From: Deltaproteobacteria bacterium
Lineage (GTDB): Bacteria > Desulfobacterota > Desulfobacteria > Desulfobacterales > ETH-SRB1
Length of the DNA stretch: 11,922 nt
Direction: 5' to 3'
NCBI GenBank assembly: GCA_003647525.1
Contig: QMMZ01000022.1
Location: forward strand, 1-11,922
The translations under genes and the position numbers were made by a program. The notes beneath the pieces are model-generated. The model did no database searches and was not told where the DNA came from. It worked only from the letters and a program-made list of their open reading frames with translations. This document shows positions 1 to 11,922 of this stretch, piece by piece (the stretch's first letter is position 1; each line of letters starts with the position of its first letter).

Positions 1-127
1 CACAGTTAACGGTTGATTGAAACATAAAGGCGAAAGGCCTTGATGCTAAACTGAGAACTCAAGTTTATATTGCATGTGAAGTTAAAATATTTTCTGAAAA
101 AATTCAAAAAACTAACTCAATAAAAAA

Positions 128-162
128 ACCGTGAACCGTGAACCGTGAACCGTGAACGGTTA
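128..162. repeat. Tandem 7-bp repeat (ACCGTGA x4) ahead of ribH
   Basis: Four perfect head-to-tail copies of ACCGTGA occupy 128-155, followed by a related ACGGTTA unit at 156-162. The junction also forms a small palindrome, AACCGT-GA-ACGGTT. The array ends 11 bases before the ribH Shine-Dalgarno sequence (GGGAGGA, 174-180). The same word recurs as single or decayed copies elsewhere in the window (about 1967-1978 inverted, 3895-3901 inverted, 3999-4019, and inside the 74-bp repeats). The rest of 1-186 carries no gene: all three forward frames have stops within the first 20 bases. The only other structure is a short hairpin, AAGGC-GAAAG-GCCTT, near position 27. Confidence 0.9.
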
Positions 163-186
163 CCTTATTAATCGGGAGGAACGTAA

Positions 187-660
187 ATGCCGAAAGTTAT
201 TGAAGGAAAACTTCTTGCCAAGGGGAAAAAATTTGCCATAGTTGTCAGTCGTTTTAATGATTTTGTTACCAGCAAGCTTACAGAAGGTGCAGTTGATGCA
301 TTGCTGCGTTCCGGAGCTGATACAGAAGATATTGAAATCATAAAAGTCCCGGGCGCCTTTGAGATACCGCTGATTGCGAAAAAGGCAGCAGAAAGAACTC
401 GCTATAATGCAGTTATATGTCTTGGCGCTGTGATTCGCGGAGCGACAGCGCATTTTGATTATGTAAGCGCTGAAGTAAGTAAAGGTGTTGCAATGGTCGG
501 CCTGGAATATGGAGTCCCTGTAATATTTGGAGTTATAACTACTGACACAATCGAACAGGCCATAGAACGTGCTGGTATGAAATCCGGCAACAAAGGATGG
601 AGTGCGGCATTAAGCGCCATAGAAATGGCTAACCTTATTGAGGCGGTTGATAAAACATAA
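187..660 (+). CDS. ribH: 6,7-dimethyl-8-ribityllumazine synthase
   Basis: RibH condenses 5-amino-6-ribitylamino-uracil with 3,4-dihydroxy-2-butanone 4-phosphate to give 6,7-dimethyl-8-ribityllumazine, the penultimate step of riboflavin synthesis in the cytoplasm. The 157-residue length is typical. Family landmarks are visible: SRFN (21-24) after the first beta strand, VPGAFEIP (54-61), and [14 protein letters not shown] (80-93) with the catalytic His at 89. The C-terminal NKGWSAA segment (135-141) is also normal. The ATG is well placed behind GGGAGGA (174-180). The upstream rib genes expected in many genomes are not in the window. nusB starts 2 nt after the stop, so the two are almost certainly co-transcribed. 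I see no FMN riboswitch upstream. Confidence 0.97.
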
Positions 661-662
661 GC

Positions 663-1085
663 ATGAGAAACCGACGCAAGGCGCGGGAACTTGCCATGCA
701 GGCTCTCTTTTATATAGATATGAGTCAGAATGACTCAAAAGAAGCGATTAAACTCTTTTATGAAAATTTTGTGACTTCAAAAAGAAATTTGTCCTTCTTT
801 TTTGAACTGATAAACGGTGTTATTAAGGCTTTGCCTGAAATTGACTCTGTAATTGAGCGTTTTTCCAGTAATTGGAAAATCAGCCGGATGTCCATTGTTG
901 ACAGAAATATTATGAGACTTGCGGTATATGAGATGCTTTTTTGTGACGATATTCCATCAAAAGTATCTATTAATGAGGCTATTGATATAGGGAAAAAATT
1001 CAGCGCCGAAGAATCAGGCGCTTTTATAAATGGAATTCTTGACAGCATACGCATTGCACTGGAAGAAGGAAAAATAAGTGCCTAA
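663..1085 (+). CDS. nusB: Transcription antitermination factor NusB
   Basis: NusB binds boxA RNA together with NusE (ribosomal protein S10) and supports processive antitermination, chiefly on rRNA operons. The 140 residues fit the family. The N-terminal Arg-rich helix (RRKARELAMQALF, 4-16) and the strongly conserved C-terminal helices are clear: W71, VDRNIMRLAVYEMLF (79-93), then DIPSKVSINEAIDIGKKF (96-113) and FINGILD (121-127). The ATG lies 2 nt after the ribH stop, a pairing common in bacteria. The last two codons and the stop overlap the left arm of an inverted repeat (1079-1219), so the final residues may have been altered by an insertion, but no conserved residue is missing. Confidence 0.96.
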   Translation: MRNRRKARELAMQALFYIDMSQNDSKEAIKLFYENFVTSKRNLSFFFELINGVIKALPEIDSVIERFSSNWKISRMSIVDRNIMRLAVYEMLFCDDIPSKVSINEAIDIGKKFSAEESGAFINGILDSIRIALEEGKISA

Positions 1086-1219
1086 AGTTGAGGAATGCGC
1101 CTTTGGCTCTGCCAATTTTAATTTTTTTTATACAACTTTGCTCACTTTGTTTCCGGCTGAAGTTATAATCAAGCACTAAAGATATATAGCACGCCGAAGG
1201 CGCACCATAACTTTAGGCA
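1079..1219. repeat. 141-bp inverted-repeat element overlapping the nusB stop
   Basis: Left arm 1079-1107 and right arm 1193-1219 are complementary. TGCCTAAAGTT (1079-1089) matches AACTTTAGGCA (1209-1219) over 11 bp without error. After a small internal loop, TGCGCCTTTGGC (1096-1107) pairs with GCCGAAGGCGCA (1193-1204) over 12 bp, one of them G-U. The enclosed 85 bases are AT-rich and hold no gene. The architecture resembles a miniature inverted-repeat element, and as RNA it would form a long interrupted stem directly after nusB. No target-site duplication was identified, so a mobile origin is an inference. Confidence 0.75.
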
Positions 1220-1248
1220 TTTTAGGCACTTTAGCTCACTTTAGGCAC
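1212..1248. repeat. Degenerate 9-bp tandem repeat (TTTAGGCAC)
   Basis: Four consecutive units read TTTAGGCAT (1212), TTTAGGCAC (1221), TTTAGCTCAC (1230, one base longer) and TTTAGGCAC (1240). The first unit is shared with the right arm of the preceding inverted repeat, and its complement occurs across the nusB stop. The array sits about 85 bases before the start of the hydrolase gene at 1335. Its function is unknown. Confidence 0.8.
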
Positions 1249-1334
1249 TCTTTACTCATCTATCCTATAGTACCGAATTCACTATGCATAAAGCGAAAAT
1301 TCCTATACTATCAAGGTAACACCAGGGAGGCATT

Positions 1335-1961
1335 TTGATTATTAAAGAGCTAACTGTTGGGATGCTTATGGCAAACTGCATAATATTGGGGTGTGAGAAA
1401 ACCAGACAAGCCGCAGTAATAGATCCTGGAGATGAGACAGAAAGAATCCTTTTATCTCTTGCAGACTCAAAGCTAAGATTAAAATATATAATAAATACGC
1501 ATGGCCATTTTGACCACGTCGGCGGCAACAAAAAAATGAAAGAAGCAACAGGCGCCGGTATTCTTATTCATTTTCTAGATGCGCCAATGCTGAGCCGGCT
1601 TTCGTCTGATGCAACTTTATTTGGATTTTCAGCGGAGAACTCGCCGCCGCCCGATAGAACACTGGAAGATAACGATACTATAAGCTTTGGCGAAATCAGA
1701 TTAAAAGTTATACATACTCCCGGGCATTCACCCGGAGGGATTTCGCTTTATACTGACAATAAACTTTTTGTTGGAGATACGCTTTTTGCTGGTTCGATTG
1801 GACGTAGTGACTTGCCTGGAGGAGATTTTAATACTCTAATATCAAGCATAAAGAACAGACTGTTTGATCTGGGTGATGATGTAAAGGTCTTCCCGGGACA
1901 TGGGCCTAACACTACCATAGGGAGAGAAAAACTATCTAATCCATTTGTCGGGCAATCCTGA
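1335..1961 (+). CDS. Metallo-beta-lactamase-fold hydrolase, glyoxalase II-like
   Basis: This 208-residue cytoplasmic protein has the full metal-binding set of the MBL-fold glyoxalase II-like group: THGHFDH (55-61, the HxHxDH motif), H131 in TPGHSPGG, D148 in GDTLFAGSIGRSDLPGGD, and H189 in FPGHGPNT. Such enzymes hydrolyse thioesters such as S-lactoylglutathione or related small molecules, but the short form here lacks the C-terminal domain of classical GloB, so the substrate cannot be named. The start is TTG at 1335, behind GGGAGG (1325-1330). The resulting N-terminus (MIIKELTVG) matches the usual family beginning, and no earlier start fits. It is separated from nusB by the repeat region and converges on the minus-strand mltF-like gene 49 bases downstream. 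Confidence 0.92.
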   Translation: MIIKELTVGMLMANCIILGCEKTRQAAVIDPGDETERILLSLADSKLRLKYIINTHGHFDHVGGNKKMKEATGAGILIHFLDAPMLSRLSSDATLFGFSAENSPPPDRTLEDNDTISFGEIRLKVIHTPGHSPGGISLYTDNKLFVGDTLFAGSIGRSDLPGGDFNTLISSIKNRLFDLGDDVKVFPGHGPNTTIGREKLSNPFVGQS

Positions 1962-2010
1962 TTTTGTAACCGTTCACCTGATTTTTTTATTCCACTTTTC
2001 CTTCCAGCTT

Positions 2011-3426
2011 TTATTCCGCATATGTATTATATTCTATTCCTCGACGCTTCAAAATATCATAATATATCATAATTTTGTTTATATATTCTATTGGCTCTGT
2101 TCCTCTGCAATATCCATACGTAGCTTTTTTATAATGTGTTTGATAAGTTAAAAGCCGCAGTGTTGTTGATAGTGAAGACCATTTATACGGGTCAAGATTC
2201 ATTTCACGTGCAATATTCTGAGCATCAAGAATATGTCCCTGGCCAACATTGTAAGCAGCTAAAGATATAAATAACCTGTTTGAATCTTCCGCGTTTTTGA
2301 AATAATTATAAAGAGCCTTCAAATGCTGAACCCCGGCATTAATATTTTGTTCCGGATCTAAAACATCTGTTACCCCGAGGCTTCTGGCAGTGGAATGGGT
2401 AAGCTGCATAAGGCCTTTTGCTCCTGCATAACTTAGTGCATTTGGGTTAAAATGAGATTCCTGGTATATCTGCGCTGCAATTAATCTCCAGTCAAAACCA
2501 TGGTAATCTGCCGCTTGCATGATAATTTCTTTATATTTGGGAAGCCTGCTTTTAAGCCTCCTGTGATATGCTCTTAAATCAACATAATCAAAAGCATCAA
2601 TATTTGCATAATATTTGTTATATATTTCATTAAATTTACCATTTTCTTTAATGATTTTGAAAAAGCAATTTATTCGATAGAGAAGATTTTGTGCATTTCG
2701 ACCTACAGCCCACCCAAGAAATTCCTGTTCACTTATCGGACATGCCAATACAGCCTTTGGATAGTACCTCTGATTAAGTAAGGCGATATTGCTATCAGCT
2801 ATTGTGACTTCTATCTTTCCTTCAGCGACCTGGTGTATGAGTTCTTCTGTAGGCAAATCATCATGCAGCTTAATTTCAAGATCAATCCCTTTATTTTTTA
2901 GCGATTTGAGGCTTTCCTCGTAGGAAGTGCCTGCTCTAATATGGACGGTTTTTCCAGCGAGATCCTCCGGGCCTCTAATTGATCTGTTGTTCCTATGTAC
3001 GATTACGTATTGTTGGATCGGCATATATCTGTTTGAGAAGGAGACCCACTTTTTCCTTTTCGGCATAATTGTCATGCTGGCAGCAATAAATGAACATGTT
3101 CCCTCAGTTAAGGCAGGAATCATACCTTCCCATTTTTCAGCAATTCTGACCTTTAAATTAACTCCCAGATAATCAGCAAAAGCCTTTGCAAGATCATACT
3201 CAAAACCCATTGCCTGTTCCCTGTACAGGTAGTAACAGTGGGCGTTATTACGGGTACAGACAGTAATTTCACCGGCTTTAAGAATGCCTTTAAGTACATT
3301 ATTAGAACCCCATTCCTTGTCACATCCATAATAACAGACTGAAAAAATAAACAATACAGCCACTATTGCCAAAATCAGGCAAGCCGACTTTTCATAGAAA
3401 GTTATTTTATCTTTAGAACAATGCAA
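2011..3426 (-). CDS. mltF: MltF-like membrane-bound lytic transglycosylase
   Basis: The 471-residue protein combines an N-terminal hydrophobic anchor (about 15-34), a periplasmic solute-binding domain of the SBP_bac_3 type (about 45-275) and a C-terminal lytic transglycosylase (SLT) domain (about 300-440). Enzymes of this type cleave the MurNAc-GlcNAc bond of peptidoglycan with formation of 1,6-anhydro-MurNAc; the SBP-like domain acts as an allosteric sensor in the best-studied MltF. The catalytic Glu is E323 in the QESHFNP motif, followed by AGAKGLMQL (334-342) and LAAYNVGQGHI (389-399). The start is TTG, directly after the stop of the upstream gene and served by GGGAG eight bases before it. 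Cys31 or Cys35 could be a lipid-modification site, but the lipobox is poor. It is the second gene of a two-gene unit. Confidence 0.88.
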   Translation of the reverse strand: MHCSKDKITFYEKSACLILAIVAVLFIFSVCYYGCDKEWGSNNVLKGILKAGEITVCTRNNAHCYYLYREQAMGFEYDLAKAFADYLGVNLKVRIAEKWEGMIPALTEGTCSFIAASMTIMPKRKKWVSFSNRYMPIQQYVIVHRNNRSIRGPEDLAGKTVHIRAGTSYEESLKSLKNKGIDLEIKLHDDLPTEELIHQVAEGKIEVTIADSNIALLNQRYYPKAVLACPISEQEFLGWAVGRNAQNLLYRINCFFKIIKENGKFNEIYNKYYANIDAFDYVDLRAYHRRLKSRLPKYKEIIMQAADYHGFDWRLIAAQIYQESHFNPNALSYAGAKGLMQLTHSTARSLGVTDVLDPEQNINAGVQHLKALYNYFKNAEDSNRLFISLAAYNVGQGHILDAQNIAREMNLDPYKWSSLSTTLRLLTYQTHYKKATYGYCRGTEPIEYINKIMIYYDILKRRGIEYNTYAE

Positions 3427-3879
3427 TTAGAATGCTCCCAGTTGGCACTCATGAATTTTAATATTCATGTCTTCGCATATACCGCTGACTGTCATCTTAT
3501 TTACTTTAAAGCGGGATGCGATATCCAACGCAATTTTGCACTCCAGCTTTCCTTCAACAAGATTGTCGGTAATTGTATTTTTAAGATTTTGGTTCCCAGT
3601 CTTTACAGGTTTTACAATTTTTTTATCAGGTCTATAGCCAAACAATCCCATCTGGCATTTTACCAACCTGTAATTAATTGAGTCGGCGATCATTCCAACC
3701 TTGTCCGGAGAGACATTGAACTCCTTTGCTATCAAAAATGCAGATGCACAGGAGAGTTCACTGTTTAATGAATGTTTTAAAATCTCATATTTAATCAAGC
3801 TGTCAGGTTTTGCATCAGGCCTGTGTTTATCAGCCGATTTTTTATTACTGTCTTCGGGAAGCATTTTTATCTTACTCAC
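3427..3879 (-). CDS. Unrecognised protein with two tandem 39-residue Cys units
   Basis: I cannot name this 150-residue protein. After a charged, probably disordered N-terminus (1-40) it holds two copies of one unit, residues 42-80 and 112-150, aligned without gaps and identical at 14 of 39 positions. Each has Cys at unit position 3, an alanine-rich helix (A..IA..F.V), a V...I turn, and ends in CQMGLF or CQLGAF. The linker (81-111) is basic. The helix-turn-helix-like spacing and paired cysteines could mean nucleic-acid or metal binding, but that is inference. The start is GTG at 3877-3879 behind AAGG; an ATG at residue 6 is an alternative. Its stop abuts the TTG start of the mltF-like gene, so the two are probably translationally coupled. 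It is divergent from ispG. Confidence 0.85.
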   Translation of the reverse strand: MSKIKMLPEDSNKKSADKHRPDAKPDSLIKYEILKHSLNSELSCASAFLIAKEFNVSPDKVGMIADSINYRLVKCQMGLFGYRPDKKIVKPVKTGNQNLKNTITDNLVEGKLECKIALDIASRFKVNKMTVSGICEDMNIKIHECQLGAF

Positions 3880-3947
3880 TGCCTTATTATTGTGTCACGG
3901 TTAACTGAATATCAAATATAATAATTATCAGACGATTTCTCTTTATT

Positions 3948-3966
3948 CAAGTGAAATAGACACTTG
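3948..3966. promoter_or_regulatory. Inverted repeat, possible operator between divergent genes
   Basis: CAAGTG (3948-3953) and CACTTG (3961-3966) form a 6-bp perfect dyad around a 7-base AT-rich centre. The dyad lies in the 156-base gap between the minus-strand two-gene unit and ispG, and overlaps the proposed -35 region of the ispG promoter. It could be a regulator-binding site, but the dyad is short and no regulator is known. Confidence 0.3.
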
Positions 3967-3992
3967 TGTTTCGCAATTGTTTTTCCTATAAA
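3964..3992 (+). promoter_or_regulatory. Candidate sigma-70-type promoter for ispG-proS-rel
   Basis: A TTGTGT hexamer (3964-3969) stands 17 bases before TATAAA (3987-3992). The -10 matches consensus at five positions, the -35 at three. This is the best promoter-like pair before the ispG operon, leaving a leader of roughly 35-40 bases that includes a decayed ACCGTGA repeat. It is supported only by consensus matching. Confidence 0.3.
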
Positions 3993-3998
3993 AAGGTA

Positions 3999-4019
3999 AC
4001 CGTGAACCATTAACCTAAC
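3999..4019. repeat. Decayed ACCGTGA-type tandem repeat ahead of ispG
   Basis: ACCGTGA (3999-4005) is followed in register by ACCATTA and ACCTAAC, a degenerate version of the array before ribH. An inverted single copy, TCACGGT, lies at 3895-3901 just upstream of the divergent minus-strand gene. Confidence 0.65.
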
Positions 4020-4035
4020 AACCTGAGAAATTATT

Positions 4036-5097
4036 ATGTCTTTTACTATAAATAGAAAAAAAACGCGCCAGATAAAGGTTGGAAAAGTAAAGATAGGGGG
4101 TATGGCTCCTATTGCTGTCCAGTCAATGACAAACACATTTACTCAGGATATTGCGTCAACTGTTTCCCAGATAAGACGGTTGGAAAAAGCCGGATGCGAA
4201 ATCATAAGGGTGGCTGTGCCTGATGAAGAGGCAGCCGATGCGATAAAACCGATAAAAGAAAAAATTTCAATTCCAATTATAGCTGATATACACTTTGACT
4301 TTCGGCTGGCTATAGCATCAGCAAGAGCCGGTGCTGACGGATTGAGGATAAATCCAGGAAACATAGGCAGTGTAAAAAAAGTAAAAGCTGTTGTTGAATG
4401 TGCAAAGGAGCTTAATATTCCCATTCGAATAGGGGTAAATTCAGGCTCACTTGAAAAGGACATATTAAAAAAATATAATGGTGCCAGCGCAGAGGCAATG
4501 GTGGAAAGCGCTGTCAGACATATAGAATTGCTGAAATCATTGGATTTCCATCAAATAAAAGTTTCAATAAAGGCATCTGACGTCCATCGCACACTAGAAG
4601 CTTACAGGCTTCTTTCTTCAAAAACCGACCTTCCTCTTCATGTCGGTGTTACAGAGGCAGGCACGCTTTTTCCTGGAATCGTAAAATCTTCTATAGGTAT
4701 AGGTATGCTGCTCGCAGAAGGTATTGGAGATACTATTCGTGTCTCTTTGAGCAGAGATCCGGCAGAGGAGGTGCGTGTAGGTTTTGAAATACTGAAAGCC
4801 CTTAATATCCGGAGGCGCGGACCTGAAATAATTTCCTGTCCCACCTGCGGACGTTGTAAAATCCCTCTTTTTGACATTGTTGAACGGGTGGACAAAGCAC
4901 TTTTAACAAGTTCTCTGGATATCAAAATCGCAATCATGGGTTGCATTGTAAATGGACCTGGAGAGGCAAAAGAGGCTGATATTGGTATTGCAGGGGGTGA
5001 TGGCAAAGGAATATTGTTTAAGAAGGGAAGAATTATAAAAAAAATTCCAGAGGAGAAACTTGTTGAAGTTCTGCTGGAAGAGGTACGGAAAGGATAG
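4036..5097 (+). CDS. ispG: 4-hydroxy-3-methylbut-2-enyl diphosphate synthase
   Basis: IspG (GcpE) is the [4Fe-4S] enzyme of the MEP isoprenoid pathway that converts MEcPP to HMBPP by reductive ring opening. The 353-residue bacterial form is present, with a TIM-barrel domain followed by the iron-sulfur domain. Early landmarks are VQSMTNT (28-34), ADIHFD (83-88) and RINPGNIG (104-111). The cluster ligands are Cys268 and Cys271 in CPTCGRC, Cys303 in MGCIVNGPGEA, and Glu310. The ATG at 4036 gives the standard N-terminus, although the Shine-Dalgarno sequence is weak. It heads a tight operon with proS and rel, with proS starting 2 nt after its stop. Confidence 0.97.
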   Translation: MSFTINRKKTRQIKVGKVKIGGMAPIAVQSMTNTFTQDIASTVSQIRRLEKAGCEIIRVAVPDEEAADAIKPIKEKISIPIIADIHFDFRLAIASARAGADGLRINPGNIGSVKKVKAVVECAKELNIPIRIGVNSGSLEKDILKKYNGASAEAMVESAVRHIELLKSLDFHQIKVSIKASDVHRTLEAYRLLSSKTDLPLHVGVTEAGTLFPGIVKSSIGIGMLLAEGIGDTIRVSLSRDPAEEVRVGFEILKALNIRRRGPEIISCPTCGRCKIPLFDIVERVDKALLTSSLDIKIAIMGCIVNGPGEAKEADIGIAGGDGKGILFKKGRIIKKIPEEKLVEVLLEEVRKG

Positions 5098-5099
5098 AT

Positions 5100-6620
5100 A
5101 TGAAAAAACAGGCAAAAGCCGCAATTACTCCAACAAGAGCTGAGGATTATCCGGAATGGTATCAAGAGGTTATAAAACATTCGGATTTGGCTGAAAGATC
5201 TCCGGTAAGAGGCTGTATGGCCATAAAACCCTGGGGTTATGCGATTTGGGAGAATATTAAGCAAGTACTGGATAATATGTTCAAAGATACAGGGGTTAAA
5301 AATGCATATTTTCCTCTTTTTATACCGTTGAGCTTTCTTGAAAAAGAGGCCGAACATGTTGAAGGTTTTGCAAAGGAATGTGCGGTGGTAACACACCACA
5401 GGCTTGAAAAAGGTCCTGACGGTGGCCTTGTCCCGGCAGGCCGGCTCAATGAGCCTTTAATAATCAGGCCCACTTCTGAAACAATTATAGGAGATTCATT
5501 TTCCAGGTGGGTAAGCAGTTATCGAGACCTTCCTGTTTTGATAAACCAGTGGGCGAACGTTGTCAGATGGGAGATGCGGACCCGCATGTTTTTAAGAACA
5601 AGTGAATTCCTGTGGCAGGAAGGACATACGGCACATGCCACTAAAGATGAAGCCATTGAGCGTACCAAAATGATGCTTGATATTTATGAAAAGCTTGCTG
5701 AAGAATACCTGGCTATGCCTGTGATAAAAGGAAGAAAAACAGCTTCGGAAAGATTTCCAGGCGCGGTTGATACCATGTGTATAGAAGCTATGATGCAGGA
5801 TCGAAAAGCTCTTCAGTCAGGCACATCACATTTTTTGGGTCAGAATTTCGCAAACGCATCTGATATAAAATTTCAATCTGCTGAAGAAAAAGAAGAATAT
5901 GCATGGACGACTTCATGGGGCGTTTCCACACGCCTTATTGGCGGACTTATAATGACCCATAGCGATGATGACGGGTTAATACTTCCTCCTAAAATTGCAT
6001 CTTCACATGTAGTTTTACTGCCTATTATAAGAAAGCTTAAGGACAGGCCTGAGGTGATGGAATTTACCGAAAGCCTTGCCAAAGAGCTGAAAGAAGAGTT
6101 TTATGGCCTCCGCAGAGTTGAAGTGGAAGTTGATGACCGGGATATAGGAGGAGCAAGAGGATGGGACTGGATTAAGAAAGGCATACCACTCAGAGTTGAA
6201 ATCGGTCCAAGAGACATCGCTGAGAATTCTGTGTTTGTCGGCAGGAGGGATCAGGAACATAATAATAAAACTTCTTTGGAAAGAAATCGCTTTGTCGCTG
6301 AAATAACAACGATTCTGGATGAAATACAAAAAAATCTATTTGAGCGGGCCGTTTCGTTTAAAAGACAACATACCGTAAAAATTGATGAAACGGGCAAATT
6401 TAAAGAATTTTTTACCCCTGAAAATCGTGAGAAGCCTGAAATTCACGGTGGGTTTGCTTTATCTCACTGGTGTGGATCTGATGAATGCGAATCCAGAATT
6501 AAAGAAGAACTTAGAGTTACAATACGGTGCATTCCCTTTGATAGTGAAAATGAGAAAGGGGAGTGTGTATACTGTGGACGACCAAGTACAAATCGGGTGG
6601 TATTTGCCAAGGCTTATTGA
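5100..6620 (+). CDS. proS: Prolyl-tRNA synthetase, short eukaryote/archaeal-like type
   Basis: ProRS attaches proline to tRNA(Pro). At 506 residues this is the compact form without the editing insertion of the E. coli-type enzyme. Class II motif 2 is in the RWEMRTRMFLRTSEFLWQEG segment (157-175), and motif 3 spans about 277-298 with SDDDGLILPP at its end. The anticodon-binding domain follows (about 303-410). The C-terminal zinc domain characteristic of this type carries Cys458, Cys463, Cys489 and Cys492, and the chain ends in Tyr506, as in Thermus ProRS where the terminal Tyr reaches the active site. The ATG follows AAGGA with good spacing, 2 nt after the ispG stop. rel starts 2 nt after its own stop. 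Confidence 0.97.
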   Translation: MKKQAKAAITPTRAEDYPEWYQEVIKHSDLAERSPVRGCMAIKPWGYAIWENIKQVLDNMFKDTGVKNAYFPLFIPLSFLEKEAEHVEGFAKECAVVTHHRLEKGPDGGLVPAGRLNEPLIIRPTSETIIGDSFSRWVSSYRDLPVLINQWANVVRWEMRTRMFLRTSEFLWQEGHTAHATKDEAIERTKMMLDIYEKLAEEYLAMPVIKGRKTASERFPGAVDTMCIEAMMQDRKALQSGTSHFLGQNFANASDIKFQSAEEKEEYAWTTSWGVSTRLIGGLIMTHSDDDGLILPPKIASSHVVLLPIIRKLKDRPEVMEFTESLAKELKEEFYGLRRVEVEVDDRDIGGARGWDWIKKGIPLRVEIGPRDIAENSVFVGRRDQEHNNKTSLERNRFVAEITTILDEIQKNLFERAVSFKRQHTVKIDETGKFKEFFTPENREKPEIHGGFALSHWCGSDECESRIKEELRVTIRCIPFDSENEKGECVYCGRPSTNRVVFAKAY

Positions 6621-6622
6621 AG

Positions 6623-8767
6623 ATGATCCGTATTAGCGACATAATAGACAAAGTTTCTGAACACAATCCTGACGCAGATATAGATATAATTGACCGAGCC
6701 TATATCTACTCTGCGAGAGTCCATGATGGTCAGATGCGTCTGTCCGGTGAACCTTATTTGTCGCATCCTCTTGAAGTTGCCGGCATCCTTGCAGATATGA
6801 AGCTGGATCCTGTCAGCATAGCGGCCGGTCTTTTGCATGATGTTATAGAGGATACCCATTCTACAGAAGAAGAAATAAAAGAGATTTTCGGTCAGGAAGT
6901 TGTTCATATAGTCTCCGGTGTAACCAAAATCAGTATTCTTTCCTTTGACAGCTCACAGGCACGCCAGGCAGAAAGTATCAGGAAAATGATTCTCGCTATG
7001 GCGGATGATATCCGGGTAATATTAATCAAGCTGGCAGATCGCCTCCATAACATGAGAACACTTCAATTTCAAAAGGAGAGTAAAAGGAAGCGGATCGCTC
7101 AGGAAACCCTTGATATTTACGCACCACTTGCTTCCCGCCTGGGTATTTACTGGATTAAAAATGAGCTGGAGGATATCTCATACAAGTATATTTATCCCGA
7201 AGAATATTCAAATATCGAAAAATTGATTAGCAAGGATAAGAAGGAGAGCGATAAATATATTGAAAAAGTTAAAAACATTATCAAGAAAAAAATGGATGAG
7301 GATAATCTGAAGTGTAAGGTCCTGGGCAGATATAAAAATATTTTCAGTATATACCAGAAAATGGTCAAACAGAATCTGCCGTTTGAAGAGATTTATGACA
7401 TTATAGCTTTCAGGATAATTCTCGATACAGTCTCTGATTGCTACAAGGCTCTAGGGCTCATACACTCCCTGTGGAAACCTGTTCCCAAAAAAATTAAGGA
7501 TTATATCGCGTCTCCAAAGCCAAATATGTATCAGGCGTTGCACACGACAGTTATAGGGCCTTTTGGGGAACGTATAGAAATCCAGATAAGAACCTGGGAT
7601 ATGGATAAGGTCGCAAAATCCGGAATCGCTGCTCACTGGAGCTATAAAGAAGGGAAAGATGTTGATGAAAGTATAAGTAAAAAATTTGCATGGATTCAGA
7701 ATCTTGTTGAAAATCAGGCAAGTTTCAGGAATCCGGATGAATTTCTTGAAAATGTTCGTATTGATCTATTCCCTGATGAAATATATGTTTTTACACCTAA
7801 CGGAGAGATAAAATCACTACCCAGGGGCGCCACGCCTGTAGATTTTGCTTATCAAATCCATACGGAAGTGGGCGGCCAGTGCACAGGCGCCAAGGTTAAC
7901 GGTCGTATAGTTCCTCTCAAATATGAGTTGCAGACAGGCAATATTGTTGAGATTATTACAACGAAAAATCATCATCCAAGCAAAGACTGGTTGAATTTTG
8001 TTAAAACCGTCAAGGCTCGCTCCAGGATAAGGCAATGGATAAAAACTCAGGAAAAAGATCGCAGCATTACTCTTGGCCGTGAGATGTGCGAAAAAGCCTT
8101 TCGCAAGTATCGTCTTAACTTTCATGAACTATTAAAATCAAAAGATATGGACACAGTTATTGAGCATTTTGGTTTTAAGACGATAGATGATTTGATCACA
8201 AGCGTGGGCTACGGTAAAATTACACCCCTCCAGATTATACGGAAAATTGTACCCAAACCCGAAACAGAAGAAGATCATGAATCTATCTTTAACAAGATAA
8301 TTGGCCATGTGCGGAAGAAGAAACCCAGGGCAGGTGTAATTGTAAAGGGTGTGGATGATATACTTATAAGGTTTGGCAAGTGTTGCCGGCCTGTTCCAGG
8401 GGATGCTATTACGGGCTATATAACAGTAGGGCATGGAGTTACTGTGCACCGGACAAATTGTATAAATGCTTTGAAAATGAATCCTGAAAGGCAGATCGAT
8501 ATAGAATGGAACAAGGATGTTGCAGAGACATATCCTGTAAAAATATGCGTTAGCTCTTCTGACAGAGTTGGTTTGTTAGCTGACGTTGCAGCCAATATCA
8601 GCAAAAGCGGTGCAAATATACTTAATGCGAGAACAGAAACAAGAGAAAACAGAATCGTTGATTCTTTTTTTACCCTGGCTGTTGAAGATGTAGAGCATTT
8701 GGATAGAGTAATATTAGCTATTAAAAAGGTAAAGCTTGTACATAATGTAAAGAGGGTGGACAATTAA
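6623..8767 (+). CDS. Bifunctional-type (p)ppGpp synthetase/hydrolase (RelA/SpoT family)
   Basis: This 714-residue cytoplasmic enzyme makes and degrades the stringent-response alarmone (p)ppGpp. The N-terminal HD hydrolase domain keeps its metal and catalytic residues: H48, H72-D73, E76-D77 in HDVIEDT, and N143. The synthetase domain (about 235-345) has the KDYIASPKPNMYQALHTTV region (292-310) and EIQIRT (319-324). TGS (about 385-447), a helical region, a CC-containing zinc-finger-like segment (K586-CC-R589 to C613) and a C-terminal ACT domain (about 637-712) follow. The intact HD site plus a basic KIKD in place of the usual RxKD loop (290-293) points to a bifunctional Rel/SpoT rather than a synthetase-only RelA. 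The ATG at 6623 was chosen because it lies 2 nt after the proS stop and begins the conserved domain; an upstream in-frame start at 6563 would overlap proS. Confidence 0.95.
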   Translation: MIRISDIIDKVSEHNPDADIDIIDRAYIYSARVHDGQMRLSGEPYLSHPLEVAGILADMKLDPVSIAAGLLHDVIEDTHSTEEEIKEIFGQEVVHIVSGVTKISILSFDSSQARQAESIRKMILAMADDIRVILIKLADRLHNMRTLQFQKESKRKRIAQETLDIYAPLASRLGIYWIKNELEDISYKYIYPEEYSNIEKLISKDKKESDKYIEKVKNIIKKKMDEDNLKCKVLGRYKNIFSIYQKMVKQNLPFEEIYDIIAFRIILDTVSDCYKALGLIHSLWKPVPKKIKDYIASPKPNMYQALHTTVIGPFGERIEIQIRTWDMDKVAKSGIAAHWSYKEGKDVDESISKKFAWIQNLVENQASFRNPDEFLENVRIDLFPDEIYVFTPNGEIKSLPRGATPVDFAYQIHTEVGGQCTGAKVNGRIVPLKYELQTGNIVEIITTKNHHPSKDWLNFVKTVKARSRIRQWIKTQEKDRSITLGREMCEKAFRKYRLNFHELLKSKDMDTVIEHFGFKTIDDLITSVGYGKITPLQIIRKIVPKPETEEDHESIFNKIIGHVRKKKPRAGVIVKGVDDILIRFGKCCRPVPGDAITGYITVGHGVTVHRTNCINALKMNPERQIDIEWNKDVAETYPVKICVSSSDRVGLLADVAANISKSGANILNARTETRENRIVDSFFTLAVEDVEHLDRVILAIKKVKLVHNVKRVDN

Positions 8768-9022
8768 GGTGCCATTGAAAACACTACTTATGATATCTGG
8801 AATACAGCCATATTTATGATATTGGCAAGTCCGAATTTCGTTTGGTATTCTCAATATATTTGTAGTGCGACGAGAAGTTGCGTATTTTGACGGATAACAT
8901 CACAAAGGTGATGATATCCAGGTCCGTATAATCACTTGTTCCAGGCGGCTTCGCCGTCTGGAATCACGGTGCTGACTACGTCCAGCACCTTGCCCCGGCG
9001 CTTGCGCCGGAACAAGGTATTG
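8768..9022 (+). other. Gene-free region after rel with a nested hairpin array
   Basis: No gene is visible. From 8892 the sequence is a run of strong dyads. The first hairpin, 8892-8919, has 5 + 6 bp around one A-A mismatch and an AAAG loop. CTTGTTCC (8935-8942) then pairs perfectly with GGAACAAG (9009-9016), and this outer stem encloses three hairpins: 8941-8961 (nine pairs including one G-U, TTC loop), 8968-8989 (GGTGCTG/CAGCACC) and 8995-9010 (CCGGCG-CTTG-CGCCGG). GGTCC (8921-8925) and GGACC (9022-9026) form a further outer match. The local GC content is much higher than in the neighbouring genes. The layout is cloverleaf-like but lacks tRNA signatures; it could be the end of a mobile element or a structured RNA. 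Bases 8768-8890 show nothing definite, and there is no clear rel terminator. Confidence 0.7.
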
Positions 9023-9096
9023 GACCGGACACCGTGAACCGCACAATCAAACTGCTTTTGCTTGCACGGCCCACGGCGCCGGTCAGCACCGCGATT
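9023..9096. repeat. 74-bp direct repeat, copy 1
   Basis: Bases 9023-9096 recur at 10899-10972, an exact offset of 1,876 bp, with only two substitutions (9056 T against G, 9074 C against T). It starts GACCGGACACCGTGAACC and ends CAGCACCGCGATT. It is GC-rich, contains the ACCGTGA word found elsewhere, and lies immediately before the AbiV-like gene. Sequence identity stops sharply at both ends. The two copies bracket the AbiV-like gene and the 240-residue gene. Confidence 0.95.
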
Positions 9097-9102
9097 AGTG
9101 AT

Positions 9103-9774
9103 ATGGAAGAAAATAACATATCTGAATTGACCATTGATTCATGCATCAAAAATGGCAGACGACTGCTTGAGGATGCTGAATGCTTACATGAAAATGAGCG
9201 ATATCCAAGTGCAAATGCGTTGGCAATTCTTGCTCAAGAAGAATTCTCAAAAGCTTTCATCCTTAAACTGGTAGGAGAAGGTGCTATTCCACTTTCTGTC
9301 GAAGTATTAAGGGCTACAAGGGACCATAGCTGCAAGCATCTAATGGCTGTAGTTATGGAATACCTATTTGTAGAATGGGACAATTTAGTAGAACATATGA
9401 AAAATTATTTCCAACAACCATATCCTCCCAGAATTCCGGACAAAATAGCTGATGCTTTGGATATATTTTGTCATGAAAAAATCCGCAAATGGAAATCTAA
9501 TAATTGGGTTTGGGCTAATGATTCGGGTTACGATAAAGAGGTAAGAAAAATTTCTAAAGGTAGCACAGACAAAATTAAACAGAACTCGATCTATGTATCA
9601 ATTACAAAAACCGGTGAGGTTGCGAACTGCCCGAGCTGTGACAGTGCAAGTGCGTTAAAACAAATCGAATATGCGAAAATTCTTGATGATGTTGCAAGTG
9701 GCCATTATATTTACAAGATATCAGAAAAAGAGCAAATTAAACCTGCTTTTAAAAATGTATTCGCAAGTTTTTGA
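9103..9774 (+). CDS. AbiV-like HEPN-domain protein, candidate phage defence
   Basis: The 223-residue product looks like the AbiV family of abortive-infection HEPN proteins: an N-terminal helix with GRRLLEDAECL (18-28), then RYPSANALAILAQEEFSKAF (33-52), which is the family's characteristic helix, and RDHSCKH (73-79), which fits the HEPN R-x4-6-H nuclease-type motif. The C-terminal half (about 110-223) is not recognisable; it contains CPSC (176-179), possibly metal-binding. Family members are proposed to halt translation or degrade RNA on phage infection. The ATG at 9103 is preferred because an earlier in-frame GTG at 9034 would add residues encoded by the 74-bp repeat. No good Shine-Dalgarno sequence precedes it. 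It appears as a single gene between repeats. Assignment is by motif memory only. Confidence 0.72.
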   Translation: MEENNISELTIDSCIKNGRRLLEDAECLHENERYPSANALAILAQEEFSKAFILKLVGEGAIPLSVEVLRATRDHSCKHLMAVVMEYLFVEWDNLVEHMKNYFQQPYPPRIPDKIADALDIFCHEKIRKWKSNNWVWANDSGYDKEVRKISKGSTDKIKQNSIYVSITKTGEVANCPSCDSASALKQIEYAKILDDVASGHYIYKISEKEQIKPAFKNVFASF

Positions 9775-9845
9775 TTTTACGCAGAATCACCAACCAGGGC
9801 TTTCAGTGGATCGCGAGGAGCATGCGCCCACTGAAGCCCGGCGTT

Positions 9846-9862
9846 CAGGTTAACTAAATGTT
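9846..9862. repeat. 17-bp repeat, copy 1
   Basis: CAGGTTAACTAAATGTT, identical to copies at 9957-9973 and 9974-9990. This copy lies within a dyad, TCAGGTT (9845-9851) pairing with AACCTGA (9864-9870), just after the attC-like palindrome. Confidence 0.9.
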
Positions 9863-9956
9863 GAACCTGACAACTGGTATCAGGATCATTTGAGTCTTTC
9901 AGAGGATAAATCAAGTTCTGTGAAAGTTAAGAAAGTTTTTTGCTTTTGACCCGTTG

Positions 9957-9990
9957 CAGGTTAACTAAATGTTCAGGTTAACTAAATGTT
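9957..9990. repeat. 17-bp repeat, copies 2 and 3 in direct tandem
   Basis: Two perfect, immediately adjacent copies of CAGGTTAACTAAATGTT (9957-9973, 9974-9990), 111 bp beyond copy 1. The last copy runs into GTTATACC (9988-9995), whose exact complement GGTATAAC occurs after the next gene at 10795-10802. Confidence 0.9.
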
Positions 9991-10062
9991 ATACCTACGT
10001 AAAAATTGCCCTCATAGCTGTAACAAAACAACATTATTACCTATATGTAACTGTACACGCTT

Positions 10063-10785
10063 ATGTATCTAAACAAACTACAAAAAATCTTAACGGAAAA
10101 CAACGAAAAGTACTTATTTCCATGTATTGTCGATTTAGTAGCGAACGGACTCAACCTGGAACGATTTTCTAATGAAGATAACATCCCTTCACGTCAGGAC
10201 ATAACTCAGTACATAGCGGCCTGGTTCAAATATATAGGACTATCTTCAGATGAATGTCGGGAATGGATGATTGAATACTGTATTGGTGTGCTATCAGCCA
10301 TATCGACCAGCTCCAAATCGCAAATACGGCACAGTACGAAGTGCAACATCAAGTATATTTACAAGTCCGATGTTACCTTTGATTGCAGATGCGAGAAAAA
10401 TCGGTTCAAAGCACCTTGTGAGTCAACGTGTCCCATTTATGAAGAAATGGCTCATAGAGCCAAAGAGAGCGAAGCAGCAAATATCGTTGAATCTTATGAA
10501 GCTATAGTTGAAGATAGGGTAGCCGATGAAATAGCGCCAATAAAATATTCTATTAAGGATGAATACAAAGACCAGTTTGAAAAAGCCATAGAGGCTGCGC
10601 AACATCATCTAAAACAAAGGGTTTCCAAAAAGGAGATTGTCAATTTATTGAATGAGAGCGGATTCAAAACTATAACAGGGAAAAAATGGTCATATTCGAT
10701 CTTAGCGAATGAGCTGAGAAAGCTCAACAGGAATATCAATAAAGCTGAAGCTGAGAAGATACGAGATAAAAAACCTATAAAATAA
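10063..10785 (+). CDS. Unrecognised protein with a Cys cluster and recombinase-like C-terminus
   Basis: I do not recognise this 240-residue soluble protein. An N-terminal helical part (1-90) is followed by a cysteine-rich patch, C94, C108, C110, C119 and C123 (CRCEKNRF then APCESTCP), which is plausible for zinc or another metal. A charged, Glu-rich helical stretch (130-185) leads to a C-terminal segment (186-222) whose pattern VSKKEIVNLLNESGF then GKKWSYSILANELRKL resembles the small helical domain found after the catalytic part of large serine recombinases and in some DNA-binding proteins. No catalytic recombinase domain is present. The ATG at 10063 is the first in frame but has no convincing Shine-Dalgarno sequence. 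It is bracketed by the 17-bp repeats and by the second 74-bp repeat. DNA binding is an inference. Confidence 0.75.
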   Translation: MYLNKLQKILTENNEKYLFPCIVDLVANGLNLERFSNEDNIPSRQDITQYIAAWFKYIGLSSDECREWMIEYCIGVLSAISTSSKSQIRHSTKCNIKYIYKSDVTFDCRCEKNRFKAPCESTCPIYEEMAHRAKESEAANIVESYEAIVEDRVADEIAPIKYSIKDEYKDQFEKAIEAAQHHLKQRVSKKEIVNLLNESGFKTITGKKWSYSILANELRKLNRNINKAEAEKIRDKKPIK

Positions 10786-10813
10786 GCAACCTATGGTATA
10801 ACAAGCGCATTGA

Positions 10814-10842
10814 CTCCGACCGGGAAAGCCGGAGAATTTTTT
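10814..10842 (+). terminator. Possible rho-independent terminator after the 240-residue gene
   Basis: CTCCG (10814-10818) pairs with CGGAG (10830-10834), or alternatively CCGG (10820-10823) with CCGG (10829-10832), followed by AATTTTTT (10835-10842). It starts 28 bases after the stop codon. Further dyads follow (GCGAA/TTCGC, 10849-10862), so the stretch may instead be part of a larger folded element reaching the 74-bp repeat: 10817-10830 is partly complementary to 10890-10904. Confidence 0.45.
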
Positions 10843-10898
10843 GCTATAGCGAAGTCTTTCGCAAAACTCGCTTTTACCAATATATAGTTGGCTTTCTC

Positions 10899-10972
10899 GA
10901 CCGGACACCGTGAACCGCACAATCAAACTGCGTTTGCTTGCACGGCCCATGGCGCCGGTCAGCACCGCGATT
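10899..10972. repeat. 74-bp direct repeat, copy 2
   Basis: This copy matches 9023-9096 at 72 of 74 positions, in the same orientation. It can fold around CCGTG (10908-10912) and CACGG (10941-10945), with an inner CGCA/TGCG stem that is weakened by the substitution in copy 1. It runs directly into the reading frame of the next small gene, which has no proper start, so this edge may be a recombination junction. Confidence 0.95.
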
Positions 10973-11186
10973 CGGCGGCTACAAGTTATGTACGACCCAC
11001 CGACGGACTTGCTTGGGTTGCATCTACCGTCATTTCTGCTATAATGTGTTTATCGGACATCCCCGTCGCCCTGAAGAAATCTTTGCCGCGGAAGACGAAA
11101 CCGACTGGAATGAGTGGATTGAGTTTTTCAGTCGCACACGTGAAGCCGATGGCCGGCGCAAAGGACTTGTGGAGGTCAAACCATGA
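10938..11186 (+). CDS. Probably 5'-truncated small gene with a cysteine motif
   Basis: The frame is open from 10914 to the TGA at 11184-11186 but has no in-frame ATG; a TTG at 10938 lies inside the 74-bp repeat. The residues encoded past the repeat look like genuine protein: CTTHRRTCLGCIYRHFC carries four cysteines (C-x6-C-x2-C-x5-C) suggestive of a zinc site, followed by an acidic, aromatic tail (EEIFAAEDETDWNEWIEFF). I do not recognise the family. The stop overlaps the ATG of the next gene (ATGA), typical of coupled pairs such as toxin-antitoxin modules. I infer that the original start was lost when the repeat was inserted or recombined here, so this is probably a remnant. Confidence 0.5.
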   Translation: MHGPWRRSAPRFGGYKLCTTHRRTCLGCIYRHFCYNVFIGHPRRPEEIFAAEDETDWNEWIEFFSRTREADGRRKGLVEVKP

Positions 11187-11386
11187 TTTTTAATCTGACG
11201 GAATACGAAAAAGCGCAGGAAGAAATGCGTATCCTTGAAGAACGATTGGAGCGGTTGCAACAGACCCACCCCATAGGTTCGAAAGGATTCACGAAGGCCG
11301 GCATTCGTAAAATGATTGCACGCCTACACGAGGAATTGGCTGTCTTTGAAGGGAGCGAAGAAGCAAGGCACTCCGTGTCGAGTTGA
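11183..11386 (+). CDS. Small coiled-coil protein, second gene of an overlapping pair
   Basis: The 67-residue product starts with a charged, heptad-like helix (TEYEKAQEEMRILEERLERL, 6-25), then GSKGFTKAGIRKMIARLHEE (32-51) and a short polar tail. A clear Shine-Dalgarno GGAGG (11171-11175) sits seven bases before the ATG, and the start overlaps the stop of the preceding frame. Size, overlap and placement next to a hicA fragment suggest a toxin-antitoxin partner, but I do not recognise the family, so this is a guess. Base composition is richer in GC than the AbiV-like gene. Confidence 0.65.
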   Translation: MIFNLTEYEKAQEEMRILEERLERLQQTHPIGSKGFTKAGIRKMIARLHEELAVFEGSEEARHSVSS

Positions 11387-11717
11387 ACATCAGTTGCCAG
11401 ATGCCGCCGAACAAAAGGATGAACTCTGACTGAAAAAGCCATGCCGTAATTTCAACAAGTTACATATCATAGCTTCTGGCGACACATGGCGAAAAATCAG
11501 GTGTTTACAAAGCAAGACAGGGCGATGTTTCCAAACCTGCATTGCTTTGTAGGGACTATCAGAAATCACAACTTAAAGAATTTTCTGCATCCATGCATAG
11601 AAAGCCAACAAAAAGTTTCAGCCGATAAAAACGGCTGAACCTGGTGATGTCCCCTCGTACCTCGGGGACATCGCCCAGGTAGATAAAGAAAAATCAAAAA
11701 TAGGGCATAACAAAACT
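11387..11717. other. Gene-free region with three hairpins before hicA
   Basis: No gene is visible in 331 bases. Three strong dyads occur. At 11506-11551, TACAAAGCAA pairs perfectly with TTGCTTTGTA over 10 bp, with an inner CAGG/CCTG stem. At 11617-11639, TTCAGCCG pairs with CGGCTGAA around a 7-base AT loop. At 11640-11679, CCTGG and GATGTCCCC pair with GGGGACATC and CCAGG, giving 5 + 9 bp around a small internal loop. The last two abut without a gap and end 38 bases before the hicA start. None is followed by a convincing T-run, so they are not obvious terminators. Confidence 0.7.
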
Positions 11718-11922
11718 ATGGCAAAGAAAATAAGAGAACTAATACAAGATCTCGTTGAAGTGGGGTTCTGCGAGATCAAAGGGACAGGTATAAAGGATCT
11801 CATAGAAAATACACGCATGCTCTTTATCCGGGTGCCGTAACCATCAGTGGAAAAGCAGGTGAAGATTCCAGGCGGTATCAGGAAAAACAAGTACGGCAAG
11901 CAATTGAAGAGGTAAAAAAATG
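11718..11922 (+). pseudogene. hicA: hicA-like mRNA interferase toxin gene, frameshifted and cut by the window end
   Basis: The first frame (11718-11840, 40 residues) starts with MAKKIRELIQDLVEVGFCEI, a typical HicA N-terminus, then runs out of family after GTGIK. From 11795 the sequence continues in the -1 frame with GSHRKYTHALYPGAVTISGK and on to YQEKQVRQAIEEVKK at 11920, a complete HicA core including the catalytic His in GSHRK. Restoring one G in AAAGGATCT (about 11792-11800) would join the halves. HicA is a small dsRBD-fold RNase toxin neutralised by HicB. The window ends on ATG (11920-11922), which may be the overlapping start of hicB. The break could be a real mutation or a sequencing error. 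Confidence 0.8.

Follow-up and report, generated by a model that had tools for sequence, protein, structure and literature searches.

A dispersed gene-less integron cassette as the probable source of the repeats around an AbiV gene in a deltaproteobacterial contig

Gene-less cassettes, that is, cassettes without an open reading frame, are known from the superintegrons of Vibrionaceae, where some of them act as promoters (PMC11014356), and from integrons in oral metagenomes (PMC6557892); in both settings they have been studied for promoter activity. The attC sites that terminate cassettes are built of R''-L''-L'-R' arms between AAC and GTT, and their bottom strand is recombined about a thousand times better by the integron integrase IntI, with the crossover at TT (PMC8946536). 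Libraries of anti-phage genes have been described in the integrons of Vibrio and in mobile integrons (works cited in PMC12444791), and the Delta-attI cassettes of mobile integrons contain attI-derived sequence away from the integrase (PMC12901181). Here we analyse 11,922 nucleotides of a Deltaproteobacteria bacterium (assembly GCA_003647525.1, contig QMMZ01000022.1, positions 1 to 11,922; hereafter the window), in which two direct repeats of 74 bp lie on either side of an AbiV-like gene and a second gene. We read the repeat as the attC of a gene-less cassette of about 156 bp, with the cassettes of the AbiV gene and of the second gene following it at an attI-like site, and we estimate the probability of this reading at roughly 85%. 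It is favoured because the element has an attC of its own, is located at crossover points, folds on the bottom strand, shows covariation between R'' and R', and is dispersed among genomes.

Like the gene-less cassettes already described, this element carries an attC and no gene and is located between gene cassettes or at an attI site; here, however, a single conserved family of about 156-163 bp recurs, which is GC-rich and almost wholly base-paired, has no promoter match and mostly displays an A^TT core (PMC11014356, PMC6557892). Its attC has the arms, the AAC...GTT ends, the bottom-strand bias and the TT crossover of ordinary cassettes, but the body of the cassette also holds inverted copies of both attC arms, which create nested R'' sites and make a three-way junction possible, and deletion forms of about 58 bp that consist of the outer stem only occur as well (PMC8946536). 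The AbiV cassette resembles integron defence cassettes in having a defence-type gene as its cargo, in this case AbiV, found in Desulfobacterales-related bacteria and known from sequence (PMC12444791). The attI-like segments share with Delta-attI cassettes an attI-derived sequence away from the integrase, but they are chromosomally dispersed and precede a cassette rather than end it (PMC12901181). Gene-less cassettes as such are thus already known, and the new part is a structured family of them spread over a class; searches limited to open-licence papers gave no description of this family.

The two repeats are identical at 72 of 74 positions, with mismatches at 9056/10932 (T/G) and 9074/10950 (C/T), and their starts are 1,876 bp apart, which confirms the two near-perfect copies reported in an earlier examination of the letters of the window (the sequence-only reading). 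They form by far the longest direct repeat among the 20 of 27 families shown, the runner-up being 28 nt long and at most 75% identical. The same reading had noted a difference in base composition between the repeats and the DNA that they enclose, and unrelated flanks. Both remarks are right in part. The G+C content is 62.2% in the repeat and 37.9% in the enclosed DNA, but the compositional outlier is the repeat, the enclosed DNA being similar to relA (39.9%) and to the window as a whole (40.4%). The flanks are indeed unrelated between the two copies; however, the family to which copy 1 belongs reaches left to 8939, a part that copy 2 does not have, and the 74 bp form the right-hand part of a GC-rich element of 156 bp (8939-9094 in the window). 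The near-identity of the two window copies would agree with a simple duplication on the spot, limited to the 74 bp, which would now permit the DNA in between to be deleted by homologous recombination. As the origin of the repeat it is refuted: the element of copy 1 begins 84 bp to the left of the repeat, and dozens of further genomes contain the unit in different surroundings. We give it next to no weight. Deletion by homologous recombination is possible all the same.

The sequence-only reading had proposed a search for the repeat in related genomes, and such a search finds it with other neighbours and as single copies. Among seven genomes around the best RelA matches, the 74 bp retrieved full-length copies at 95-97% identity in three (G001, G004 and G005; labels in G and L are our own for genomes and loci). 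All of them extend to the left like copy 1, up to a 15-bp inverted repeat, and all except that of G004 have a further hairpin beyond it. In the sampled class, taken to be Desulfobacteria, the element was matched in 51 of 389 genomes, and a sample of the phylum gave 11 of 395 (both at E<=1e-4, with at most two candidates scored per genome, so that copy numbers are lower bounds). A further search of 16 carriers, in which every candidate was scored except in G322 (40 of 52), returned 1 to 13 matches each, partial copies counted. Some copies are clustered on the same strand: six lie within 41 kb in G064, in a cluster that adjoins an integron-integrase gene at 3035682, and three full and two short ones lie within 8.5 kb in G040. 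Copies from one genome are 96.7% identical (21 pairs); for copies from different genomes the mean is 83.5% (759 pairs), with a maximum of 99.4%. In 12 of 19 cases the most similar copy lay in the genome of the copy itself. A plasmid collection contained no match to the region or the element, a phage collection none to the element, and viral contigs none to three exact patterns; a 19-nt pattern met in two viral contigs, where 20 nt align in unrelated surroundings, was judged to be a chance match.

To score attC stems we used a home-made scorer, written since RNAalifold, applied to 16 attC sites, gave no common structure. In block-shuffled windows its chance rate per 10 kb per strand is 5.5 at a score of 22 and 0.2 at 30, and no match at 34 occurred in 20 shuffled windows. 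To the left of many copies of the element lies either an attC-type sequence (RYYYAAC...L''...L'...GTT) or an attI-like end (...AAT[CT]ACTTG). In 36 of 42 copies, and also in the window, the leading TT of the element is preceded by G. A predicted attC (score >=20) ends exactly at the left junction in 17 of 43 copies, compared with 59 of 1,500 GTTs drawn at random from the same loci, and eight of the 43 have an attI-like end instead of an attC at this place. After the closing TT the consensus reads A[TG]RC, with A in 29 of 42 copies, and resembles the core-site consensus GTTRRRY. At the right end, the six array copies of G064 read CACCGCG^TT, a canonical G^TT, whereas the window and most genomes have CACCGCGA^TT, to which an additional T in the left arm (AATC vs AAC) corresponds.

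Boundaries of this kind also call to mind a miniature inverted-repeat transposable element with 15-bp terminal inverted repeats, inserting at the GTT of attC or attI sites with a 2-bp TT duplication and relying on a transposase encoded elsewhere. Such an origin would suit the inverted ends (AATCRCGGTGCTGAC/GTCAGCACCGCGATT), the several copies per genome, the contigs that end inside copies and the TT on both sides. The flanking TT fits an IntI crossover equally well, however, and the canonical G^TT of the G064 copies, the presence of all four attC arms (R'', L'', L' and R') inside the element, the selection of its structure on the bottom strand and the covariation of R'' with R' (both described below) all speak against a transposable element, which we consider quite improbable.

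Within the gene-less cassette of the window, the attC consists of an R'' AAC (9011-9013), the L'' and L' arms and an R' G(A)TT (9093-9096), with the crossover at 9094^9095. The six array copies of G064, which have a GTT core, all score 36-36.5 on their own ends, the R'' being the inner AAC in four of them and the outer one in two. At 156 bp the cassette is too short for an open frame of 70 aa or more, and none is present. Its terminal hairpin has 11 pairs, in which 421 of 429 cells of the alignment are Watson-Crick. A bias towards bottom-strand folding is expected of a cassette, because this is the strand that IntI recombines (PMC8946536). The consensus fold of 39 distinct copies reaches -115.0 kcal/mol on the bottom strand against -79.4 on the top strand, and the bottom strand folds better in 40 of 40 copies, the corresponding figure for ordinary attC sites being 11 of 16. 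Non-Watson-Crick cells follow the same trend: 211 of them, A.C on the top strand, form a pair on the bottom strand alone, and 17 pair on the top strand alone. Such cells are shared by descent and counts by column are the safer measure; bottom-only wobble is found in 28 and top-only wobble in 14 of the 66 pair columns. Two or more Watson-Crick types occur in 24 of the 66 pairs. A covariation signal joins column 78, just before the inner R'' GAAC, to column 5, the fourth base of the cassette: the two pair in 35 of 40 copies where 15 are expected, which is the best of 166 columns and was reached in none of 10,000 shuffles, as against 19 of 40 for the local hairpin partner. To judge from their positions, columns 78 and 5 would meet as R'' and R' only in the circular cassette, and the sites at columns 78 and 24 may be readable as R'' copies that follow R'.

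The same conserved structure could belong to a regulatory or small-RNA element in the 5' leader of cassette genes, maintained for the function of the RNA. Several copies are located just upstream of a gene start, and promoter activity has been attributed to gene-less cassettes of Vibrio (PMC11014356); but this position is shared by every cassette inserted in that slot, a consensus scan gave no promoter or terminator match inside the element, and Rfam gave none for positions 8700-11922 at E<=1. Moreover, the pairs are kept by wobble on the bottom rather than the top strand, which makes a sense RNA unlikely. The element might still encode an antisense RNA or contain a promoter that the scan did not recognise. 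On balance we regard a regulatory or RNA element as unlikely to explain the family, although such a function is compatible with a gene-less cassette and can be true on top of it.

Several observations weigh against the cassette reading. The base to the left is other than G in 6 of 42 copies, no attC is scored within the 70 nt examined in 26 of 43 left flanks, and the left flank in the window itself scores 18.5. The core is A^TT, not the canonical G^TT, in most copies, including that of the window, and an attC of score >=30 is found downstream of only 5 of 15 other attI-like sites. The scorer is blind to strand: it gives the AbiV site 34.0 on the plus and 36.0 on the minus strand and finds 21 minus-strand against 24 plus-strand matches at a score of 28 in the G064 and G040 loci. 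A second match in the window, at 9852-9973 (31.5 on both strands), is not accounted for by the cassette reading. Column 5 also forms a pair with column 24 in all 40 copies, and the signal for the circular form is therefore not independent of the hairpin. Finally, a tblastn search with one integrase query (E<=1e-10) detected no integrase in the window, in line with the recombinase-free window of the sequence-only reading, and integron-integrase genes are not enriched in genomes that carry the element (34 of 51, compared with 31 of 51 sampled non-carriers).

In other genomes, members of the family do stand in arrays with attI and intI, as met at the loci of G064, G110 and G108 and not in the window. 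At loci L197 and L203, and at L114 with an integrase fragment, the integrase lies beside an attI and the element. In G110 and in G108 a copy comes immediately after the attI-like site that belongs to an integron-integrase gene, one copy in G004 adjoins an integrase fragment, and in G064 an ordinary cassette comes first at the integrase site, with the element placed after the attC of that cassette. Many of the integron-integrase matches in the class (in G132, G074, G110, G108, G005, G011 and others) belong to open frames of unusual length, about 430-500 aa, as compared with the 315 positions of the model.

The attI-like segment of the window adjoins relA without a neighbouring intI, and the locus is not a complete integron. 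The end of this segment is similar to segments beside integron-integrase genes at L138, L197 and L203. It is dispersed in 8 of 17 genomes of the family; in 16 copies with a complete right end, the window included, the next base is G in 14 and the next three are GTT in 10. The gene-less cassette follows only two of these 16 (in the window and in G011), which indicates that the slot usually holds something else. The dispersed segment was not found beside the integrase loci fetched for the family, and such segments are perhaps orphan attI sites. A consensus promoter scan of 8760-9110 found two sites where 0.5 were expected, and promoter-like sites lie in the attI-like segment. This promoter-like segment (110-130 bp; 8827-8938 in the window, loci L205-L223) is itself a multi-copy sequence with various genes at its G^TT. 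At G040:C1 (L195), three near-identical attI-like segments lie within 9 kb, at about 3760456, 3763498 and 3768855, each of which then carries a gene-less cassette or a short form.

The features of the locus are compiled in Table 1. The array would comprise, in order, the attI-like site, the gene-less cassette, the AbiV cassette and the second cassette, to whose attC a second, truncated copy of the element, devoid of its left part, appears to be fused.

Table 1. Features of the predicted cassette array and its surroundings in the window
Feature	Position	Strand	Basis or remark
Promoter-like -35/-10 pair TTGGCA-18-TATTCT, possible Pc into the array	8822..8851	+	consensus scan only
attI-like segment, ending ...TATAATCACTTG at crossover G8938^TT	8827..8938	+	dispersed repeat with common right end
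Gene-less integron cassette (predicted), 156 bp	8939..9094	+	dispersed element, full length
Terminal hairpin, outer R'/R'' arms TTCCAGGC.../...GTCTGGAA	8939..8963	+	fold and covariation
attC of the gene-less cassette	9011..9096	+	stem score 33.5
Reported repeat, copy 1	9023..9096	+	L''-loop-L'-R' part of the gene-less cassette's attC
AbiV gene cassette (predicted), 749 bp	9095..9843	+	bounded by crossovers 9094^9095 and 9843^9844
AbiV-family HEPN protein, 223 aa	9103..9774	+	PF18728, TIGR04498, PADLOC AbiV
attC of the AbiV cassette (CACCAAC...GTT)	9788..9845	+	score 34.0
Second cassette (predicted), 1,127 bp	9844..10970	+	start placed from the attC of the AbiV cassette
240-aa protein, weak helix-turn-helix/recombinase-domain resemblance	10063..10785	+	PF20552, E 2.3e-4, below cut-off
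attC of the second cassette, 5' arm plus loop (TATAAC...), continuing into copy 2	10797..10898	+	
Reported repeat, copy 2	10899..10972	+	truncated gene-less cassette, left part missing

That the gene next to the element is AbiV-like, as the sequence-only reading had it, is borne out by three profile collections: Pfam HEPN_AbiV (72.6 bits against a cut-off of 27.1, E 5.3e-20), NCBIfam TIGR04498 (68.9 bits against 27) and PADLOC AbiV (E 5.5e-8). The attC behind it scores 34 over 9792-9845, a value equalled by none of 2,000 block shuffles of 9775-9960. Homologues of this AbiV were found in 3 of the 389 class genomes, and in all three a predicted attC starts at most 15 bp from the stop codon or overlaps it by 2 bp; at 35-39% identity, these homologues are too divergent to reveal one cassette both in the presence and in the absence of the element. 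The host is a relative of Desulfobacterales: the nearest RelA sequences, 95-96% identical, come from metagenome-assembled genomes of Deltaproteobacteria (L001, L002 and L003), followed by Desulfobacteraceae and Desulfobacterales. At L003 (RelA 96% identical) the flank downstream of relA is shared with the window and diverges within about 5 bp of the crossover, and both the repeat and the AbiV gene are absent. No tRNA gene is present in the window, and there is hence no sign of an island at a tRNA site. Anti-phage defence cassettes in integrons are reportedly the subject of Darracq 2025, Getz 2025 and Kieffer 2025; the AbiV cassette would be a further member of these integron-borne defence-type genes, its function in defence being putative.

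The second cassette encodes a protein without any match at E<=0.01 in PADLOC or NCBIfam. Its attC arms score 29.5, and 19.0 when paired with the R' end of copy 2. Copy 2 has a 6-bp GACCGG in common with the second cassette's attC, which would be a candidate for its break; some other copies of the element read CTCGACCGG at this point, however, and the break may instead be situated a few bases to the left. The leader of this cassette (9843-9859, 9954-9996) contains three near-copies of GTTCAGGTTAACTAAATG, spanned by the scorer match at 9852-9973, and these are possibly remnants of small attC units. Further downstream, positions 10973-11922 contain gene remnants: a frame with a DUF6932-like ending (10938-11186; E 1.1e-3, which does not reach the cut-off), one of 67 aa (11183-11385), and a third that starts near 11719, is broken and has an end resembling a toxin-antitoxin protein. 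Short GTGAACC / GGTTAACGG repeats near ribH and ispG (120-170 and 3990-4016) are unrelated to the element.

The mechanism that we envisage is the folding of every attC on its bottom strand by an integron integrase that works in trans; recombination at G^TT, or at an A^TT presumed to be active in the case of the gene-less cassette, would then excise or insert AbiV and its neighbours. Recombination by IntI between the two sites of the element would release 9095-10970 as a circle of exactly 1,876 bp, that is, as a double-cassette excision. The sequence-only reading had taken the repeats for the paired ends of one 1,876-bp unit that recombination between them would excise or circularise. Such a unit, moved by homologous recombination, is not supported: each repeat reads as an attC copy of a separate gene-less cassette, and AbiV, with an attC of its own, and the second gene read as two different cassettes. 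The broader notion of an exchangeable defence cassette survives as far as the cassette-like character of the locus, its defence-type gene and the other neighbours of the repeat elsewhere are concerned; the unit and the mechanism do not.

A more far-reaching possibility, which we hold to be less likely than not, is that the family constitutes a selfish, nearly palindromic cassette that consists of little more than its attC, spreads through the integrons of the whole class and lives off the integrases of its hosts. Replicative single-strand recombination would spread such a cassette, and the identical attC sites that it seeds would give rise to multi-cassette excisions, such as the 1,876-bp AbiV circle. 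One conserved gene-less family that is dispersed over a class and present in some genomes as several near-identical copies would demonstrate that cassettes are able to persist and multiply even if they hold no gene, and it would provide a natural test for the existence of integron parasites. The locus also places AbiV among the integron-borne defence-type genes of Desulfobacterales-related bacteria. Where cassettes are separated by identical attC sites, several of them would be expected to move together as a block.

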